Below are positions 1 to 36,615 of a stretch of 41,573 nucleotides of DNA, piece after piece. Position 1 is the stretch's first letter, and each line of letters starts with the position of its first letter. Source of the stretch: an uncultured eubacterium 1-6 (lineage in GTDB: Bacteria; Bacillota; Clostridia; Lachnospirales; Lachnospiraceae). Both the position numbers and the translations under genes were made by a program. The DNA is taken from positions 42,162 to 83,734 of the forward strand of contig CAIFEZ010000017.1 in the NCBI GenBank assembly GCA_903789595.1, read 5' to 3'. Below the pieces are notes generated by a model. It did no database searches, was not told the DNA's origin, and saw only the letters and a program-made list of their open reading frames with translations.

Positions 1-55
1 GGTCTCTTACGCGCGCTTCGCGTGCGTCGATCCCGTCTGCGTTTTCGAAGAGCTT
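1..55 (-). repeat. Partial copy of TIR-bearing intergenic repeat (family A, copy A0)
   Basis: Bases 1-55 are identical to bases 202-256, an exact 55-bp direct repeat offset by 201 bp. The shared block contains the near-palindrome ACGCGCGCTTCGCGTGCGT and ends in TTTTCGAAGAGCTT. The terminal TATACAG seen in copy A1 is scrambled here (TCAGTATAC follows instead). The element continues beyond the left edge, so its other end cannot be seen. Confidence 0.85.
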
Positions 56-90
56 TCAGTATACGCCATCATGATAGATTCTGTTCCAAT

Positions 91-262
91 CTGTATAAGC
101 TGCGGATTGCTTCGTGCTCCGCACTCCCGCAATCCTACAGGAATTCGGATTCCGCGCATACGCGCTTCATCCTCATTCCTGTTGCCTTCGAAATCGCTTC
201 CGGTCTCTTACGCGCGCTTCGCGTGCGTCGATCCCGTCTGCGTTTTCGAAGAGCTTATACAG
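91..262 (-). repeat. 172-bp MITE-like element with 10-bp terminal inverted repeats (family A, copy A1)
   Basis: The element starts CTGTATAAGC (91-100) and ends GCTTATACAG (253-262), a perfect 10-bp terminal inverted repeat. Inside are a stem GGATTGC...GCAATCC (104-132), the block CCTTCGAAATCGC, and the hairpin ACGCGCGC-TTC-GCGTGCGT. The right terminus overlaps the 3' end of hisS: the hisS stop codon (255-257 on plus, TAA on minus) lies inside the terminal repeat. No clear target-site duplication is visible. Related copies are at 13862-13914 and 21831-21950, with a fragment at 17134-17161. There is no transposase in the window, so mobilisation in trans is inference. Confidence 0.75.
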
Positions 263-1505
263 AAAAAACTTCCTCGATCTCTGTATAGCCTTCTGCCGCA
301 AGCTGCTCCTTCTGGAATTTCTTGTTTTTCTTCATGACAAGAAGATTCACCGTCTTGCCTTCTGCCCGCTCCTGCATCGCCCTGCGGACCGTCTCCTGAA
401 TCTTCTCGCCGGAGCACTTCTTCTCAATAAGATATGCCTTCTTCACAGCGGTTCCCGGAACCTGGTAGCCGCGCTCCAGGAGCAGCATAACGATGCGCTC
501 GAAACCGATGGAAAAACCGACTGCAGGTACCGGCTGGCCGATGAATTTCCCGACCATCTCGTCATACCTTCCACCGCCGCCGACAGAACCGCCGAATTCA
601 TCCATGGAAATCTCAAAGATCGGTCCTGTGTAGTAGGACATGCCCCGGACAAGCGTCGGGTCAAACTTCATGCAGAAATCCGCAGTCTTGACCGCATCGA
701 CGCTGTTCATGATGGTAATCAGTCCGTCTGCGTATTCCGGATCGAGGAATCCCGTCAGCTTCTCTTTTGCCGTCTGCACACCTGCGGCATCCGGAGTGAT
801 GATCCGGAACAGCTCCAGGTATTTCTCCACAGAGTCCTTCGCGTATCCGGATTCCAGGAGCTCCTTTTCCACGCCGTCCAGCCCGATCTTGTCCATCTTG
901 TCTAGGATGATGAAAACCTCGTCGTAGGATTCCTCGGGGAAACCGCTGTACGCGGCCATCGCCTTCAGAATGCGGCGGTCATTGATGCGGATGGTGAAAT
1001 TCCGGAAATCCAGCTTTCCCAGCAGCGTGGTCGTTGCAAGGATCAGCTCGATCTCCGCGAGGTTGGAGGATTCGCCGAGGATATCGATATCGCACTGCCT
1101 GAACTGGCGGAATCTTCCTCTCTGAGGGCGATCCGCACGGAATACATTCCCGGTCTGAAGCGCCTTGAAAGGACTGGGAAGATCATTCGCGTTATTGGCA
1201 TAAAAACGGGAAAGCGGGAGCGTGAGATCGTATCTGAGTCCGCTGTCGACAAGATCCGCCTCGGATTCCGCCTCTGTAAGCTTCAGCTTCTCGCCTCTCT
1301 TTAGAATCTTGAAGATCAGCTTCTCATTTTCTCCGCCCTGCTTGCTGTTCAGGTTCTCAATATGCTCCACACAGGGGGTTTCGATCGGCGTGAAGCCGAA
1401 TCTGGAATAGGTCTCGTTGATCAGGCCGATCACATAATTGCGGATTTCCATCTCCCGGGGGAGGATATCCTTCATTCCGGTCACGGGTTTTTTTGTAAGC
1501 TTCAT
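255..1505 (-). CDS. hisS: Histidyl-tRNA synthetase
   Basis: Class II aminoacyl-tRNA synthetase that charges tRNA-His with histidine in the cytoplasm (416 aa, usual length). The start region KPVTGMKDILPREM is the typical HisRS N-terminus. Class II motif 2 is seen at FRADRPQRGRFRQFRQCDID, the histidine-A motif at LVRGMSYYTG, and motif 3 at GFSIGFERIVMLL; the C-terminal anticodon-binding domain is short but complete. The ATG at 1503-1505 is chosen because it overlaps the TGA of the upstream HD-GYP gene as ATGA, a translational-coupling arrangement; an in-frame TTG 12 bases upstream has its Shine-Dalgarno too close. The last codons (..TCT GTA TAA) and the stop are contributed by the terminal repeat of element A1, so the natural 3' end may have been replaced. 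No terminator is visible before the repeats. Confidence 0.97.
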   Translation of the reverse strand: MKLTKKPVTGMKDILPREMEIRNYVIGLINETYSRFGFTPIETPCVEHIENLNSKQGGENEKLIFKILKRGEKLKLTEAESEADLVDSGLRYDLTLPLSRFYANNANDLPSPFKALQTGNVFRADRPQRGRFRQFRQCDIDILGESSNLAEIELILATTTLLGKLDFRNFTIRINDRRILKAMAAYSGFPEESYDEVFIILDKMDKIGLDGVEKELLESGYAKDSVEKYLELFRIITPDAAGVQTAKEKLTGFLDPEYADGLITIMNSVDAVKTADFCMKFDPTLVRGMSYYTGPIFEISMDEFGGSVGGGGRYDEMVGKFIGQPVPAVGFSIGFERIVMLLLERGYQVPGTAVKKAYLIEKKCSGEKIQETVRRAMQERAEGKTVNLLVMKKNKKFQKEQLAAEGYTEIEEVFSV

Positions 1506-13861: not shown

Positions 13862-13914
13862 GGCGGGCTTCCGCGTGCGACGAGCCTGTCTGCGTTTTCG
13901 AAGAGCTTATACAG
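13862..13914 (-). repeat. Partial copy of the TIR-bearing repeat (family A, copy A2)
   Basis: The right half matches copy A1: CGTGCGACGAGCCTGTCTGCG, then TTTTCGAAGAGCTTATACAG, ending with the intact terminal repeat GCTTATACAG at 13905-13914. The left half is missing. As with hisS, the stop codon of the upstream minus-strand gene (TAA, 13909-13907) lies within the terminal repeat. Confidence 0.8.
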
Positions 13915-15889
13915 TAAGGTATACATCTGAAATGAAGCAGTTTTCTTCGCAGCGGAATTCGGCATTGCCGTCGTACATTGTCGCGATGTTGGCGATACTG
14001 GTCAGCCCGATGCCGACCTCCTCCCGTTTGCTTGAGATGTAGAAATGGCCCCATTTTCTCGGCCTTCCGGTCATGCTGTTCTCCATGTGGATCACCAGAT
14101 GTCCCATGTGCATGACCGCAGACAGGTTCACCTTCTTTTCAACGTTCCTGCCGCTGTCCGCAATTCTTTCTTCCGCCTCTACGACGTTCTCCAGAAGATT
14201 TCCGAATACCACGCACAGATTCTGCTCGACGCTTCGGGAGAGTTCTCTGGGCAGTGAAATATTGATGTTTACGGATGCCCCGACATTTCCCGCGGCTCTC
14301 GCATAGTAGCCGACCACGGCGTTTACAACCGGATTTTCCGTGTACCGGATATCTTTTCCGGTCGGTATCGCTTCCCTGAGCTGTGACAGATACTCTTTGA
14401 TCTCCGGAAGCTTCCCGGCATCGGCGAATTCCTTCAGCACAGTCAGCTGATGTCTGTAGTCATGCCGCTGCCTGCGAAGCTCCTTTTCATGCTCCAGCAG
14501 CGTGTCCTGATATTTTTTCTGCTCATCAATTTCGCGGTTCAGCAGAGACAGGCGGTATTCCTGTTCCTTCTCTCTTCGTGACAGCTGAATGGATTTCCGG
14601 ATCTGAAAGCCTCCGATCATACACATAAAAAATCCGAAGACCATGACTCCGTACACGAAATACTGGGAGCTCGAATATACCACAGCGTCTTTGTACCGGA
14701 CCAGTTCAGCAACACTGGCTGCTGAAAGGATCAGCATCGGTCCTACCCAGAGCATGCCGGTTTTGTTTTTGTACCGGACCGCTTCCACAAGCACAGCAAA
14801 CGTGAATGTGAATATAGACAATGGTATCAGGATCTGATACAAACGCGCGCTCTGCGTGAACATGACTGTTCCCGTCATCTGAAGGACAACACACAGAAGC
14901 ATGGAAATCATCAGAAAGATTCTCAGGAGAAACAGCGGTTTTTTCCGATGAAACTTGACGCTGTTCTCCAGCGTAAGCTCCAGCGGCAGGACCAGGCTGA
15001 AAAAGCTGATATAGCTCAACATGTACCACAGATTCGGGTCGTTGATGAAGAAAAGCGCCATATCGCAGTTCGAAAATCCCCACATTCCTGTCAGTGCAAT
15101 GAAAGTTCCGAGCCAGAGAAAGATGTACCCGCCGGGATCCATGCGGATGATGATCAAGGATACAAACACAAGGATGACACCGGCAAGAAACATGATGGCA
15201 CTTGCCGCGAGAACGCCTCCCGTCGTCATCGTATGATAGCGGACAAGGCCGGACTGATTGGACACCAGCAGCTGAGGAATGGAGATGGTGCTTCGGGTCT
15301 TCGGGAAGGTATACTGAAGAACCACGGTAATCTCGCCGGTTTCCCTGACCGGCACCATGTAAAACGCCGTTCCGGGATCCTTCATAAAGGAAGGCCGCTC
15401 ATCCTCTGCGCCGAACGAGTACATCTTCGAACCGTTCACATACACCGTGAGCGGCGCAAATGCTGTCCGCACCTCCACATAACAGTCATTTCTCTCATTG
15501 GTAAAGTGAAATTCGGCCTGAAGTGCAGTTTCTGATCCCTCCCTGCTGATTTTCGCCGGAAGTTTTACCGTCTCCTTGGACCCGTTGACGGTCACCTCCG
15601 CAGTATTCACTTTTCTCAGAGGAGCGGCTCCTCCGGTATATGAATCCGAGACGTAATACGGAATAACCCGCCATATCAGAATAAGGCAGCAGACACAGAA
15701 GGCCGCGAACCAGCCCCACCTGATCCGTCCGCCGAACCTGTCCCACCATTCTTTCCAATCGTCCGTCTTTAACAATGCCTGTTTCTCCCTTGATAAAATA
15801 TTATCGAATCGTATGCCGGAAGTTTTCAACAACTGCCATTTTAACATATTCTTGATGAAACGAACACCGATATCTGACTCTATGAACAT
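13907..15889 (-). CDS. Multi-pass membrane GHKL sensor histidine kinase
   Basis: Sensor kinase of 660 aa. A first membrane segment (about 50-72, WGWFAAFCVCCLILIW) is followed by an extracytoplasmic region of about 130 residues, predicted beta-rich (PLTVYVNGSKMYSFG). Seven hydrophobic segments (about 205-430) come next, then a coiled coil and the phosphoacceptor region RQRHDYRHQL, of the HPK10 type found in AgrC-like kinases. The ATPase has an N box NLLENVVEA and a G box VGIGLTSIANIATMYDG. The extracytoplasmic-domain-plus-7TM layout resembles 7TMR-DISM receptors; the ligand is unknown. The ATG at 15889 is preferred (GAGGGG just upstream) over a TTG 8 codons earlier. The cognate response regulator is immediately upstream, but a terminator and repeat B1 intervene. 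The last codons and stop (ACT GTA TAA) come from repeat A2. Confidence 0.88.
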   Translation of the reverse strand: MFIESDIGVRFIKNMLKWQLLKTSGIRFDNILSREKQALLKTDDWKEWWDRFGGRIRWGWFAAFCVCCLILIWRVIPYYVSDSYTGGAAPLRKVNTAEVTVNGSKETVKLPAKISREGSETALQAEFHFTNERNDCYVEVRTAFAPLTVYVNGSKMYSFGAEDERPSFMKDPGTAFYMVPVRETGEITVVLQYTFPKTRSTISIPQLLVSNQSGLVRYHTMTTGGVLAASAIMFLAGVILVFVSLIIIRMDPGGYIFLWLGTFIALTGMWGFSNCDMALFFINDPNLWYMLSYISFFSLVLPLELTLENSVKFHRKKPLFLLRIFLMISMLLCVVLQMTGTVMFTQSARLYQILIPLSIFTFTFAVLVEAVRYKNKTGMLWVGPMLILSAASVAELVRYKDAVVYSSSQYFVYGVMVFGFFMCMIGGFQIRKSIQLSRREKEQEYRLSLLNREIDEQKKYQDTLLEHEKELRRQRHDYRHQLTVLKEFADAGKLPEIKEYLSQLREAIPTGKDIRYTENPVVNAVVGYYARAAGNVGASVNINISLPRELSRSVEQNLCVVFGNLLENVVEAEERIADSGRNVEKKVNLSAVMHMGHLVIHMENSMTGRPRKWGHFYISSKREEVGIGLTSIANIATMYDGNAEFRCEENCFISDVYLTV

Positions 15890-15931: not shown

Positions 15932-16026
15932 CGAGATAAAACACGCTGCGCGAGTTTTATCTCGCTATCGCGACGCTCGCCGCACACGAATACTTCGCAT
16001 TCGGCTGCGGCTCACTGTTCGCGTAA
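15932..16026 (-). repeat. Structured terminator-linked repeat (family B, copy B1)
   Basis: The core at 15945-16026 closely matches 29094-29176, with about six differences in 82 bases. The conserved fold on the minus strand is an outer stem GCCGCA/TGCGGC enclosing CGAATGC-GAA-GTATTCG. This copy also has an 11-bp stem, CGAGATAAAAC (15932-15942) with GTTTTATCTCG (15954-15964). It begins directly at the U run of the terminator following the response regulator gene, and lies in the gap before the kinase gene. Confidence 0.8.
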
Positions 16027-17044: not shown

Positions 17045-17130
17045 TGTATCATAAACAGCTGTGCAGTAAAACGCACCACAAACTGTATCATCCCCACTGT
17101 GCAGTAAAACGCACCGTAAACTGTATTATC
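17045..17130 (-). promoter_or_regulatory. 38-bp tandem repeat with LytTR-type motifs
   Basis: Two near-identical 38-bp units start at 17059 and 17097 (CTGTGCAGTAAAACGCACC, then AAACTGTATCATC or AAACTGTATTATC), with a partial unit to the left. On the minus strand each unit contains a nonamer, ACAGTTTGT (17086-17078) and ACAGTTTAC (17124-17116). Both fit the published LytTR half-site pattern [TA][AC][CA]GTTN[AG][TC]. The 38-bp spacing is not the classical 21-22 bp, so site function is inference. Confidence 0.45.
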
Positions 17131-17133
17131 ACC

Positions 17134-21806: not shown

Positions 21807-21827
21807 TTGCGGCAGATTGTGCCGCAA
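21807..21827 (-). promoter_or_regulatory. Perfect palindrome upstream of cbiM
   Basis: TTGCGGCA (21807-21814), a 5-base spacer, then TGCCGCAA (21820-21827): a perfect 8-bp inverted repeat centred about 48 bases before the cbiM ATG, with no U run. It could be an operator or an mRNA hairpin; the protein that would bind it is unknown. Confidence 0.45.
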
Positions 21828-21830
21828 ACG

Positions 21831-21950
21831 GTATAAGCCGCGGGCCGCTCCGCACTTCGTGCTCATACCTGCCGCCTTCGAGATCGCATCCATTCTTTTA
21901 CGCGCGCTTCGCGTGCGATGAGCCCGGATGCGTTTTCGAAGAGCCTATAC
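21831..21950 (-). repeat. TIR-bearing repeat (family A, copy A3)
   Basis: A 120-bp copy with termini GTATAAGC (21831-21838) and GCCTATAC (21943-21950), which pair with one mismatch. Internal blocks shared with A1 are CTCCGCAC near the left, CCTTCGAGATCGC, the hairpin block ACGCGCGCTTCGCGTGCG, and GTTTTCGAAGAGC. Its right end lies about 45 bases past the DUF3786 gene stop, the same orientation relative to the upstream gene as copies A1 and A2. Confidence 0.75.
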
Positions 21951-21979
21951 ATATGATAGCGCCTGTCATGATAAAAAAG

Positions 21980-21996
21980 AACCTGGGTGGGGGGTT
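21980..21996. promoter_or_regulatory. G-tract with flanking AACC/GGTT at the DUF3786 gene 3' end
   Basis: AACCTGGGTGGGGGGTT spans the DUF3786 gene stop. CsoR/RcnR-family repressors bind G-tracts flanked by short inverted repeats, and such a repressor gene lies just upstream, so this is a candidate operator for the cbiM side of the cluster. The assignment is weak: composition is the only evidence. Confidence 0.25.
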
Positions 21997-22654
21997 ATTT
22001 TTTCAGATAAGCAAGAACATTTTCAAAGACCTCCATGCAGGCGTCTATGATCTCTGCCAGATCATAGGTGCCGAAGGCCGCCGGAAAATTGCTGGAAAAG
22101 AGGATCTGCGCCGTCGGCTCGAATTCCTCATCTCCTCTCCAGAACAAAAAACGGATGGACAGCCCGTCCAGAAACTCAAGCTCCCACGCCTCGTCTGCCC
22201 CGTGGATGTGTTCCGCGCCGATGAATTCCATGATGCCGCCGAATTCATCGAGACGGTTTCCGAACCGTTCCGCGAGGTGTTTCCGGCATCTGTCCTCAAA
22301 CTGCCGGGCGTACACCTCGCCGGAAGGCAGCTCCCGGAATGCCATAAACTCCCCGTTCTGCGGGAAGACCGTCGCGTGAAGAAGATAGCGTCCGATCAGG
22401 ATTTTCCCGGAAGGAAGGCCCGCGAGACGGTACAGGTCCTCTCCGTCGGCAGCCTCGATCTGCATGCCCGGATGAGAGACATAGTACTCTCTCCCCATAA
22501 AGGAGACGCTGAAGCGCTCACAGATATAGTCAAAGGGAAGGCCCAGTCTGTTTGCAATATGCGTAGGCTCCGTCTCCGCGTACTGAGCCTGATAATGTCT
22601 GAACAGCTCTTCTGCGGGAACCGCCGCCCCGTCTTCTCTGTCAAATGTACTCAT
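21995..22654 (-). CDS. DUF3786 family protein
   Basis: Cytoplasmic protein of 219 aa recognised as DUF3786 from the C-terminal stretch FWRGDEEFEPTAQILFSSNF and the preceding LEFLDGLSIRF. No signal peptide or membrane segment. Function is unknown; members are found in anaerobes. Here the gene sits 13 bases after the CsoR-like repressor gene and upstream of cbiMQO, so a role in nickel or cobalt handling is a reasonable inference. It contains scattered His, Cys and acidic residues (GAEHIHGADEAWELE) but no clear cofactor motif. The ATG at 22654 has GAGGGG 9 bases upstream; an in-frame start 11 codons earlier would overlap the repressor gene and lacks as good a site. Confidence 0.8.
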   Translation of the reverse strand: MSTFDREDGAAVPAEELFRHYQAQYAETEPTHIANRLGLPFDYICERFSVSFMGREYYVSHPGMQIEAADGEDLYRLAGLPSGKILIGRYLLHATVFPQNGEFMAFRELPSGEVYARQFEDRCRKHLAERFGNRLDEFGGIMEFIGAEHIHGADEAWELEFLDGLSIRFLFWRGDEEFEPTAQILFSSNFPAAFGTYDLAEIIDACMEVFENVLAYLKK

Positions 22655-29011: not shown

Positions 29012-29093
29012 CGCTTTCGGTCACGGTATGCCTCACAGGCAACGGCCCTGTGAACATCCCGGCAGCAGGATTAAATGCGCTGGGACTAAATGC

Positions 29094-29176
29094 GCTGCGC
29101 GAGTTTTATCTCGCTATCGCGACACTCGCCGCACACGAATGCTTCGTATTCAGCTGCGGCTCACTGTTAGCCTAAG
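29094..29176 (-). repeat. Structured terminator-linked repeat (family B, copy B3)
   Basis: Closely matches B1 (15945-16026), with about six differences over 82 bases, including the block GAGTTTTATCTCGCTATCGCGAC and the stem GCCGCA...TGCGGC. It lies just downstream of the yerC terminator in minus-strand reading, as B1 and B2 follow other terminators. A short duplication, TAAATGCGCTG, abuts its distal end (29073-29097). Confidence 0.82.
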
Positions 29177-32741: not shown

Positions 32742-33108
32742 GCTTTCCTCTTCGATCCTGTTCCATGACCTCATCAATTCGTTTGGACATCTGAACGCCA
32801 TATTCGATAGATTCGTCGAGCTTGAAATGAAGCTCAGGCGTATTTCTCAGATTCAGATTCACTGCGAGCATATGGCGGATAAACCCGGAGGAGCTTTTCA
32901 GCCCTTCCATCGTATCCTCCTTTGCCTTCTCATCTCCGAGAACGCTGATCATCACCTTGCAGGTTTTCAGATCTGTCGCTACGATTGCCTCCGTGACGGA
33001 GACAACCGGCGCGATCCGCGGATCCTTGACCTCATTGCGGATGATATTGCTCAATTCTTCCTTTACAGACTCATTGATTCTGATATTCTTGACACTGTTT
33101 TTTCTCAA
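32725..33108 (-). CDS. rbfA: 30S ribosome-binding factor A
   Basis: Small KH-like cold-shock ribosome maturation factor (127 aa). Features are [46 protein letters not shown] and [18 protein letters not shown], all standard. The start is TTG, overlapping the infB stop as TTGA (4 bases), with GAGG 7 bases upstream, so translation is coupled to infB. Confidence 0.96.
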
Positions 33109-36100
33109 CGCGGCACCTCAACCATAGCATATGCCTCAACCTGATCGCCTTCATTGACCTCGTTGAAGCCGTCAAACACCAGACCGCACTCATAGCCGGC
33201 CTTGACCTCCTTGACATCGTCCTTGAAGCGCTTCAGACTCGCGAGATCGCCCTCGAAAATCTGCTTGCCGCCGCGGCTGATGCGGACCTTGCATCCTCTC
33301 TGCACCATTCCGTCCAGAACATAGCTTCCGGCAATGGTGCCGACTCCGGACGCCTTGAAGAGCTGACGCACCTCGGCGTGGCCGATGACCTTCTCCTCGT
33401 AAATCGGCTCCAGCATTCCCTTCATGGCAGCCTCGATGTCATCAATTGCCTGATAGATGACCTTGTACAGGCGCACGTCAACCTTCTCCTGATCCGCCAG
33501 AGCCTTGGCATTTGCGTCCGGACGGACGTTGAATCCGATCACGATTGCGTTGGAAGCCGCTGCCAGCGTGACATCAGACTCGTTGATCGCGCCGACGCCG
33601 GCGTGGATGATCTTCACAACGACCTCATCATTGGAAAGCTTGAGCAGCGACTGACGGATTGCCTCTACCGAACCCTGCACATCTGCCTTGATGACAAGCT
33701 CGAGTTCCTTGACAGAGCCGTCCTGAATCTGGCTGAACAGATCGTCCAGAGACATTCTGGACTTGGTCTCCTCCAGAAGCTGATTCTTGTGCTCGGCCGT
33801 GAAGGTAGCCGCGAAGTTCTTCGCCTCCTTATCGGTTTCCATTGCCACTAGGGTCTCACCGGCGTCCGGAACACCGTCAAGTCCCTGTACCTCAACCGGA
33901 GTGGACGGTCCCGCCGTTTTCACGCGTTTTCCGTTTTCATCGGTCATCGCGCGGACCTTTCCGGAGCTTGCGCCGCAGGCAATATAATCGCCGACGTGAA
34001 GGGTTCCCTTCTGAACAAGGAGGTTTGCAACGGGTCCCTTGCCCTTGTCCAGCTTCGCCTCAAGGACGAGTCCTCTCGCGAGACGGTCCGGATTTGCCTT
34101 CAGCTCCATGATATCCGCCGTAAGCAGAATCGTCTCCAGAAGGTCGTCAAGACCGGCTCCGGTCTTCGCGGAAACCTCAACCATCTCCGTCTGTCCGCCC
34201 CAGTCGCTTGCGATCAGACCGTACTCCGTGAGCTCCTGCTTCACGCGGTCTACATTTGCGCCCGGTTTATCGATCTTGTTTATCGCAACGATGATCTCAA
34301 CACCGGCTGCCTTCGCATGGTTGATCGCCTCAATGGTCTGCGGCATTACGCCGTCATCCGCCGCAACGACAAGAACCGCGATATCCGTAGACTGGGCTCC
34401 CCGAAGCCTCATCGCAGTAAAGGCCTCATGACCCGGTGTATCGAGGAAGGTGATCTTCTTGTTGTTGATGTTGACGACATATGCGCCGATGTTCTGCGTG
34501 ATTCCGCCCGCCTCCTTGGAGGTTACATGTGCATGACGGATCGCGTCGAGAAGCGATGTCTTGCCGTGATCAACATGGCCCATTACGCAGACTACCGGAG
34601 GACGGGAAACCATCTTGCTCTCATCCTCTTCATCCTCCTTGAGCATCTCGGCAATGACATCCACTTTCTCTTCCGGCTCGCAGAGAATATCGTACGTCAT
34701 CGCAATCTCTTCTGCCTTTTCGTAATCAACCTCCTGGTTAACGGTGAACATCTCACCCTTCATGAAGAGATCCTTCACGATAACCGAGGGCTGCATCTTC
34801 ATCTTCTCCGCAAGCTCGCGGATGGTAACCTTCTCCGGAATCTTGATTTCTGTCACCTTTTCTTCCTTCTTATCCTCTTTCTTATGCACCGGTCTCTGCA
34901 GTGCCTTCGGAATCAGATGTCTGTTATTATGTCCGTTCCCTCTGTCGCTGGTGTATTTGTTGCCGCGAAGATCACTCTTGTTCTTGTCCTTGTCCTTATT
35001 GTGGCCGGCTCCCTCTCTTGAAGGTTTCTTCAGACCCATATCCATAGCCGCGCCCTGACCGCTCTTGTGGTCATTGTGCTGACCTCTGGAATGACTCTGG
35101 AACCGGTTTCCCTCATCGGCGTCCTTGCCGCCGAAGCCCGGTCTGTTTCCGCCGAAGCCCGGCCTGTTTCCGCCGAAACCGGGACGGCTTCCTCCGAATC
35201 CCGGACGGCTGTTGCGGTCGCCGAACGGCTTTCTGCCCTGGCCGCCGTTATTCCGGTCGCCATAGTTCCTGCTCTGACCATTGCCGCTGCGGTCGCCGTA
35301 GCTCCTGCCCTGGCCGCCGCTGTTCCGGTCGCCATAGCTTCTGCTCTGGCCATTGTTATTCCGGTCACCATAGCTCCTGCCCTGGCCGCTGTTATTCCGG
35401 TCGCCGTAGCTTCTGCCCTGACCGCCGTTATTCCGGTCGCCGTAGCTTCTGCCATGACTGCTTCCGACGCGGTCGCCGTAGCTTCTGCTCTGGCCGCCGT
35501 TATTCCGCTCGCCGTAGCTTCTGCCCTGACTGCTTCCAGCGCGGTCGCCGTAGCTCTTGCTCTGACCGTTCTGACTCTGATGCCCTGAAGTCTCGCCTGC
35601 AGAAGCAGACGCGGTATTCTTTTCTTCCGTCGCTTTCATCTCCGGCGCTTTTTCCGCTGAGGAATTTTGTTCCGCAGAACCTGCCACAGCAGTATTCGCC
35701 CTCGCCGGTTCTGCCGCTGCCGCCTTTACCGCAGCGGTTGCTGTCTCTGTCTCTGCGCTCGCCGCACCGGCAGCCGGCTTTGCAGCCTCTGTAACAGGTG
35801 TGTTCCTGACAGCGCTCTTTTTGATTTCATCTGCCGCCGGTTTCGGAGCCTCCTCCATCCGGATCACCGGATGCGGTCTCGGCACCTTCACAATCGGTGT
35901 TCCGACGGACGCGCGATTGCCTACGGGACGGCCGCCGCGGCTGCTCTCCTGAACGCCTCCGCGGCGCGAAACTTCTGTCCGTCCTGCGCTTCCGTCTGTT
36001 CTGGCAGTTTTCTCTCTGGTCTTTTTCTTTTTGTCCTTGTCCATGACCTGATGAAAATTCTTGCCCTCTTTACTGGACGCATTCTGCGGATGAAAAACGG

Positions 36101-36287
36101 CAATCAGCCTTTTCTTTTTCTTCACCGGCTTTGCATCCTTCGCTCCCCTGGCAGCCCCGTCTTCCTTTGCGGCTTTGGAATTCTCCGCCTTCGCTGCCTT
36201 TTCCATCTGGTCGTTTACATTCTTTCCTTCATTTTCATTATTATTCAATGTATCGATTACCTCTTTACTTCCATGAATCCTGATCAA
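33105..36287 (-). CDS. infB: Translation initiation factor IF-2 with long repetitive N-terminus
   Basis: GTPase that brings initiator tRNA to the 30S subunit. The core is typical: IF2-N domain (about 475-535, [20 protein letters not shown]), G1 [16 protein letters not shown] (about 565), switch [12 protein letters not shown]3 DTPGHEAF, G4 NKID, G5 [12 protein letters not shown], then domains II, III and IV. The N-terminal half (1-475) is predicted disordered: an Ala/Lys/Glu-rich part, about ten 12-residue units near [12 protein letters not shown] (about 240-357), then four RPGFGG units. The far N-terminus ([14 protein letters not shown]) looks like a shortened form of the usual first IF2-N subdomain. 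The TTG start at 36287 is tentative: AGGA lies 11 bases upstream and it overlaps the ylxQ stop region; another in-frame TTG 15 codons on, after GAGGT, is possible. Confidence 0.95.
35119..35570 (-). repeat. In-frame tandem repeats in infB (12-codon and 7-codon units)
   Basis: 36-bp units encoding variants of [12 protein letters not shown] span 35216-35570 (about ten units). They are followed by 21-bp units encoding RPGFGG plus N or S at about 35119-35215 (four units). All units stay in frame; differences are mostly N/S/G and Q/H substitutions, as in repeat arrays kept by selection on composition. Confidence 0.85.
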
Positions 36288-36294
36288 TCTGTGA

Positions 36295-36615
36295 TTATTC
36301 CTGTCCGTTCTCCACATCCAGAAGTGTCCGAATTTCCCGCGCAAGATTCGCGTCCGTGATTACAACCGAAGAACGGTCCCCTTTTCCGATCAGAGCGCCG
36401 AGCTCTGACTTCGGAAGAAATTCCGTATAAGGAACGCTCCGGTAGGCAGACATGTCGCGGAATTTTTTCTTTGTATTTGCCGACGCATCCTCCGATATAA
36501 TCACCAGCTCTGCGCTGCCGGCCCTGATCGCCTGCTCCGCGGCAAATTCCCCGGCGGCGACCTTTCCGGCCTTCATGGAGATGCTGATCATAAACCGTGC
36601 CTTTCTACTGTCCAA
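36295..36615 (-). CDS. ylxQ: L7Ae/L30e-family ribosome-associated protein YlxQ
   Basis: 106-residue protein of the ribosomal L7Ae/L30e/S12e/Gadd45 fold. Features are [40 protein letters not shown] and the kink-turn-binding-like middle; C-terminal [16 protein letters not shown]. YlxQ proteins are thought to bind kink-turn RNA; cellular role unclear. The start is TTG at 36615, with GGAGG 10 bases upstream, overlapping the ylxR stop by 11 bases. Confidence 0.9.

Follow-up and report, generated by a model that had tools for sequence, protein, structure and literature searches.

The RF01699 (Clostridiales-1) family of Lachnospiraceae is probably a non-autonomous mobile DNA hairpin rather than primarily an RNA gene

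The short element found at the 3´ end of hisS in an uncultured member of the Lachnospiraceae belongs to RF01699 (Clostridiales-1), which is entered in Rfam as a candidate small RNA without function but here shows the behavior of a mobile DNA repeat. Mobility of the element is well supported, and we consider it probable that RF01699 is a non-autonomous mobile DNA hairpin and not primarily an RNA gene. In contrast to what the Rfam entry conveys, covariation in its stems is nearly Watson-Crick-only, its left end is fixed and its tandem arrays are mostly truncated.

The element at hisS (A1) occupies positions 91-262 on the minus strand of the window, the whole stretch of 41,573 nt that was analysed, and is a complete 172-bp unit. 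The perfect 10-bp terminal inverted repeats reported in the preliminary description were confirmed (CTGTATAAGC at 91-100 and GCTTATACAG at 253-262). A1 scores 91.3 bits against RF01699 (95-258, minus strand), above the gathering score of 48; both its sequence and its secondary structure follow the model along the full length. Its Rfam sense strand is co-directional with hisS (255-1505, minus strand; PF13393). The reported overlap with the 3´ end of hisS is also real: the last codons are TCT GTA TAA, of which GTA TAA (255-260, minus strand), the final codon and stop, lies inside the terminal repeat of the element, giving a protein that ends in EEVFSV*. Positions 1-55 (minus strand; 100% identical to 202-256) hold the head of another unit in the same tandem array; the window edge cuts this unit, and a linker at 56-90 (minus strand) lies between it and A1. 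This array (L149, G000:C17:39000-45400) extends beyond the window and contains an N gap within one unit. Folding of A1 gives a closed stem with three arms for either strand, as RNA (z of -9.8 and -9.7 for the two strands relative to shuffles) or as DNA (z of -8.4 and -8.5), with the RNA fold of the Rfam strand at -88.2 and that of the other strand at -81.8.

Two more copies lie in the window, both close to where the preliminary description had placed them. A2, a truncated element (L150; model positions 1-48; 13865-13914, minus strand), ends a GHKL-type kinase gene (13907-15610, minus strand; PF14501; protein ending DVYLTV*) by supplying its GTA TAA, as A1 does for hisS. The orthologue comparison returned no match for the kinase at that site. 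A3 (L151; model positions 1-126; 21826-21951, minus strand) lies 43 nt past a DUF3786 gene on the same strand (21995-22654; PF12654).

The window also contains other repeats. A second dispersed family is represented by a pair with 91% identity at 15939-16026 and 29088-29175, the reverse complement of which begins TTACGCGAACAGTGAGCCGCAGCC; an exact 28-nt piece of this type is present in 14 of 413 loci, some of them overlapping, and a copy resembling it follows the terminator T-run TTTTTTTTAC in a related genome (G011, L226), at the place where the source genome carries RF01699 (L165). Two adjoining 37-nt repeats (CTGTGCAGTAAAACGCACC...; 89% identical) at 17059-17133 are intergenic by our gene calls. 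Eight overlapping copies of a repeat with a 36-bp period at 35197-35592, inside a long ORF (33105-36344), probably correspond to a repetitive protein segment, given that the period is a multiple of three.

The preliminary description of a dispersed short element with inverted ends was borne out. In the source genome (G000; 3.66 Mb, 66 contigs), BLAST returned 80 matches to the element, and 55 of the 79 RF01699 profile matches listed were over the cut-off. Of the 185 nhmmer hits, 50 were dropped because they were overlapping shadows of others. Among 78 element stretches, 60 have a callable left end and 18 do not; many copies are partial, and most are intergenic according to a gene finder of our own making. 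An RF01699 match over the cut-off is present in each of the 16 genus genomes searched, with 1 to 67 matches per genome, and a 20-nt pattern search of named genomes gave 53 stretches, of which 51 lie in hRUG896, a rumen Lachnospiraceae assembly, and in UBA4343. Some stretches (L132, L162, L125, L124 and L154) form a subtype with a different first arm (TGTATAAGTCCAGTCGCAATGACAGAGACGG...); L132 and L162 have 225 identical bases in common, and a TAAGTCCAG type that resembles this subtype is also present in G008 and G012 loci. A full-text literature search found no description of RF01699 or Clostridiales-1 as a mobile element. Its sole relevant match was the Clostridiales-1 row of a table (Weinberg 2010), where the motif is listed as "probably" RNA and probably not cis-regulatory.

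We looked for empty sites in relatives, as the preliminary description had suggested, and found them. hisS lacks the element in 13 of the 14 relatives with a hisS match, the insertion being common to G000 and G003. The earlier view that the terminal codons are element-derived stands at hisS, where the 13 element-free genes all end otherwise: EEVFAE (G011), EEIFAR (G009), EEVFARD (G015), EDVYAN (G004), VDVFAR (G008), IEVFNN (G002), VDIFAR (G006) and, in the remaining six, VFAN, VFAR, IFAR, FYAD, IYGD and IFEH. It does not carry over to L133 and L167, where the G003 orthologues end in GTA TAA without any element, and therefore part of the terminal codons at these two genes may be target sequence. 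The G000 and G011 HisS proteins are equally long; the insertion thus lies where the gene naturally ends and has not shortened the protein. In a comparison of five genes with stop-type sites, protein length shifted by 0-1 codon. The orthologue comparison covered 20 of the 78 stretches. The element was absent from the G011 sites orthologous to L142, L127 and L136, three empty sites that are a part of the 20, since at many of the others the relative has the element or a remnant too. L142 and L127 both follow -10 boxes in G000, and the native promoter is present where the relative lacks the element (TATAATCTTATC in G011 versus TATAATGTAC followed by the element in G000).

The placement of the left ends of the 60 callable stretches follows a pattern. 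A co-directional stop codon was found within -8 to +12 of 13 left ends (seven at exactly -7, and one, L139, being a loosely called, doubtful end); among 6000 randomly sampled intergenic positions the share was 4.3% (p = 1.3e-6; like all p-values for the three placement classes this is descriptive, as the classes were defined after inspection of the flanks). Seven genes end in an in-frame GTA TAA at exactly the same element position, and all seven proteins end in V. Seven left ends come after a -10/-35 pair scoring 9/12 matches or better, compared with 0.9% of random positions (p = 1.4e-6) and 1.4% of 1448 TAC-matched control positions (p = 1.9e-5). The element lies 3-4 nt from the box in all seven; in six of them the gap is 4 and the spacer 17 nt long, and each of the seven is followed by a co-directional gene. 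A stem and T-run typical of an intrinsic terminator precedes 10 left ends, compared with 0.58% of 4000 positions (p = 2e-12). The three classes (stop codons, -10 boxes and intrinsic terminators) together account for 30 of the 60. The junction prefers TTAC, with T at -4 in 43 of the 60 copies, T at -3 in 46, A at -2 in 45 and C at -1 in 35.

The preliminary description had proposed that the element targets gene 3´ ends. This is only part of the story: the stop-codon class is real, but other left ends lie at -10 boxes and terminators. A reading of the element as purely a 3´ UTR element is rejected, given the seven left ends that follow -10 boxes whose gene is downstream. The orientation bias that had been anticipated relative to neighboring genes is present as a mild skew and is weak; for the 78 stretches (E) and their neighbors we counted 34 +E+, 22 -E-, 10 -E+ and 6 +E- arrangements, as well as 6 stretches without a called gene on one side. 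The pattern could in principle arise by selection alone, with random insertion followed by survival at harmless places such as stops, terminators and leaders. The intergenic position of most copies and the small effect on protein length at stop-type sites agree with this account. However, it predicts neither the TTAC junction nor the abutment to T-runs, and because of the exact spacing at -10 boxes it is disfavored; we regard it as quite improbable.

The two ends of the element behave differently. The similarity of near-identical copies at different sites mostly stops at TGTATAAGC (left) and shortly after GCTTATACA (right). A tail past GCTTATACA (TTTGTGRCACAATRTATC...GTTTAC) is present in a number of copies. 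All 23 tandem arrays start with a left-complete unit, but only two finish with a unit that extends to the right limit of the model. Among the other 21, 17 are plainly truncated, three (L124, L128 and L149) keep the right terminus after internal loss and one (L110) meets an N gap. In the arrays inspected, linkers are alike within one array and unlike between arrays.

The element resembles miniature inverted-repeat transposable elements (MITEs) in being short and multi-copy, with inverted ends and absence at orthologous sites, and one branch of the family shares more with them. In G015, near-identical RF01699 copies in unlike flanks carry terminal inverted repeats (TIRs) of ~18 bp together with duplications of 5 bp, among them TATAA, TAAAA and TGTAA. 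For 14 G015 and G008 copies chosen because both ends were recognisable, 56 of 70 duplication positions match, compared with 44.2 in shuffles (reached by 0 of 20000); seven of the 14 are perfect, most commonly TATAA and TAAAA, and three match at no more than two of five positions. Given these TIRs and duplications, the G015/G008 subtype is a classical MITE. It is possible, though on balance unlikely, that the whole family is of this kind, namely an ordinary DDE MITE with TIRs and a 5-bp TWTAA-type duplication, the G000 type being old, degraded and internally duplicated. The duplication that follows insertion into TATAA would then regenerate a TAA stop or a -10 box, and the G003 orthologues of two genes that end in GTA TAA without an element are in keeping with such an origin. 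In G000, however, five of six tests for direct target duplication gave values within those of shuffles (for first units, 41/130 versus 36.0, reached by 497 of 5000). The sixth, at the ends of stretches with k=5, gave a weak excess that favors the DDE account (84/230 versus 69.3, reached by 22 of 5000) but no perfect 5-bp match. Also against it, flank similarity of G000 first units is inverted and not direct, the junction is a T-run or TTAC rather than TATAA, most arrays end truncated, and a TIR pattern search of G015 (assembly 82% complete) found no autonomous element sharing the TIRs. The differences between the G000 type and MITEs are thus its inverted flank copies, the lack of clear direct duplications, the one-sided truncation and the lack of a partner transposase among the candidates found.

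Other transposition systems were considered for comparison. Group IIC introns insert beside terminator T-runs, as RF01699 does, but RF01699 is also found at stop codons and -10 boxes. Members of the IS200/IS605 family typically have a junction fixed 3´ of a short target, produce no direct duplication and carry hairpins. RF01699 is similar in that its junction falls right after a TTAC-like target, in its hairpins and in its lack of a clear direct duplication; the TTAC columns and the boundaries of near-identical copies fit a junction of this type, and the direct-repeat tests are mixed. It differs in that its right end is variable and no Y1 transposase gene with matching ends was found in G000. 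The search of G000 for Y1_Tnp gave two matches, one IS605-type gene and one remnant, with flanks unlike the element ends, and derivation of the element via this Y1 gene is rejected on these grounds. The gene (L185, G000:C3:136039-136401) adjoins a divergent larger ORF. Y1_Tnp is present in 12 of the 16 genomes with no relation to copy number visible by eye. Y2_Tnp was detected in one of the 16 genomes (G009) and is absent from G000, G003 and G011; a rolling-circle, IS91-like element is accordingly not supported. REP and BIME sequences, according to one account (PMC3733652), are palindromic, intergenic and often downstream of genes, with a length of 20-40 bp and a GTAG or CGTC tag. RF01699 shares the palindromic character and the location with REP/BIME and their RAYT partners. 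However, it is a 172-bp multi-branched unit with the ends TGTATAAGC and GCTTATACA, and no Y1 transposase was found with these ends in G000; membership in the REP/RAYT system is rejected on the basis of its length and ends.

We then come to the question of which molecule is structured. An RNA reading would hold that RF01699 is a small RNA gene, or a structured leader or 3´ UTR, selected as RNA, and that copies have spread because they are useful. The 91.3-bit match to the Rfam model and the listed "probably" in the table row of Weinberg 2010 speak for it, as does the position of seven copies 3-4 nt after a -10/-35 pair, from which they would be transcribed. Among 29 full units, both sides have changed in 21 of 54 RNAalifold pairs. 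The kinds of pairs, however, are not those expected. These units have 1502 Watson-Crick, 17 G-U, 13 A-C and 31 other pairs. With the same method, a control of 14 sequences, picked by hand from 19 loci with a weak RF00011 match and which we take to be RNase P RNA from these hits and from features of the molecule, gave 1022 Watson-Crick, 163 G-U, 10 A-C and 28 other pairs, with 42 of the 163 G-U coming from three pairs that are G-U in all 14 sequences. The RF00011 (RNase P class B) search gave weak matches in 19 of 31 genomes and none over the cut-off. The far higher tolerance of G-U than of A-C seen in RNase P (163 versus 10) is thus not found in the RF01699 stems (17 versus 13).

Larger sets gave the same picture. 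Single-sequence folds of 43 distinct units had 2251 Watson-Crick, 38 G-U, 34 A-C and 170 other pairs, and 88 distinct rows of related loci (from the best 100 of 150 aligned rows) had 4174, 83, 58 and 121, respectively (4436 cells), where independence of the two sides would give 397 G-U and 390 A-C; the element copies are related, such that base changes in these counts are not independent. Copies at the same site differed by 16 double Watson-Crick changes, 2 G-U, 0 A-C and 5 other, or by 7, 1, 0 and 4 without L225, which contributes nine of the 16 double changes and is possibly a different copy; in this comparison nine of 15 site pairs were without a full-length match. G-U is slightly more frequent than A-C (17:13 and 83:58) and the Rfam strand folds slightly better, which both lean towards the RNA reading, and the G-U excess may reflect some RNA-level constraint. 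Overall, these counts favor DNA over RNA as the molecule that is structured, and the role as an mRNA 3´ structure that the preliminary description raised is at this point a conjecture.

The loop tips and flanks bear on the same question. Two of the three arm tips have the form cGNAg in 28 and 26 of the 29 units, and in a wider set cGNAg is found at the first tip in 36 of 73 (where CTTG is common) and at the third tip in 60 of 81. A published account describes GCGAAGC/GNA loops as extraordinarily stable DNA mini-hairpins with a Tm of 78 C (PMC4686876). In addition, the closing stem is prolonged by an inverted copy of the flank, by 2.35 nt in 26 G000 units compared with 1.03 in shuffles (reached by 0 of 2000), and by 5.25 versus 3.06 nt (0 of 5000) in a set of 16 loci from other species, where the extension beside one terminator T-run (L342) reached 10 nt. 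Template switching in replication is described as correcting and extending stems in this way (PMC8794818). Tips that suit DNA, a closing stem partly copied from local DNA and the many partial copies, together with G-U pairs nearly as rare as A-C, all weigh against the RNA reading, which we consider improbable.

Returning to the mobile DNA hairpin, we propose the following sequence of events, for which the transposition chemistry, the template switching and the neutrality to the host are inferred. In G000, the fixed end, TGTATAAGC... (5´ in the Rfam sense), would attach directly 3´ of a T-rich target resembling (T)TTAC. Such targets would frequently be terminator T-runs, sequence just past a -10 box or the final codons of genes, and in this last case the TGTATAA of the element can act as a stop. 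The other end would be variable, generating arrays in which element and linker alternate and a partial element comes last. The stems would be kept perfect at the DNA level, most simply via template switching across hairpin arms in replication, which would also add an inverted copy of the local flank to the other side of the closing stem. For the host, the consequences, whether for a stop codon, a 5´ leader or a 3´ UTR, would be by-products tolerated by selection. A more specific version is speculative and, in our estimate, rather doubtful: RF01699 would be a single-stranded-DNA mobile hairpin that enters at points of DNA melting by RNA polymerase, namely the -10 region, the T-run of terminators and gene ends. 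It would be laid down from its fixed end in a rolling-circle-like manner, with the repeats breaking off at any position, and would fold back to copy the flank, such that the stem is partly host DNA. On this version, a mobile DNA structure would have been misread as an Rfam small RNA family.

Compensatory changes in base pairs are commonly regarded as the strongest sign that an RNA is functional. In RF01699, G-U intermediates are few among such changes and flank DNA has been copied, which suggests a family of DNA hairpins that has been filed as RNA. Counting G-U against A-C pairs is a cheap test that can be applied to other orphan RNA families, and the fixed junction at stops, terminators and -10 boxes provides a natural record of the points at which such an element can enter a bacterial chromosome.
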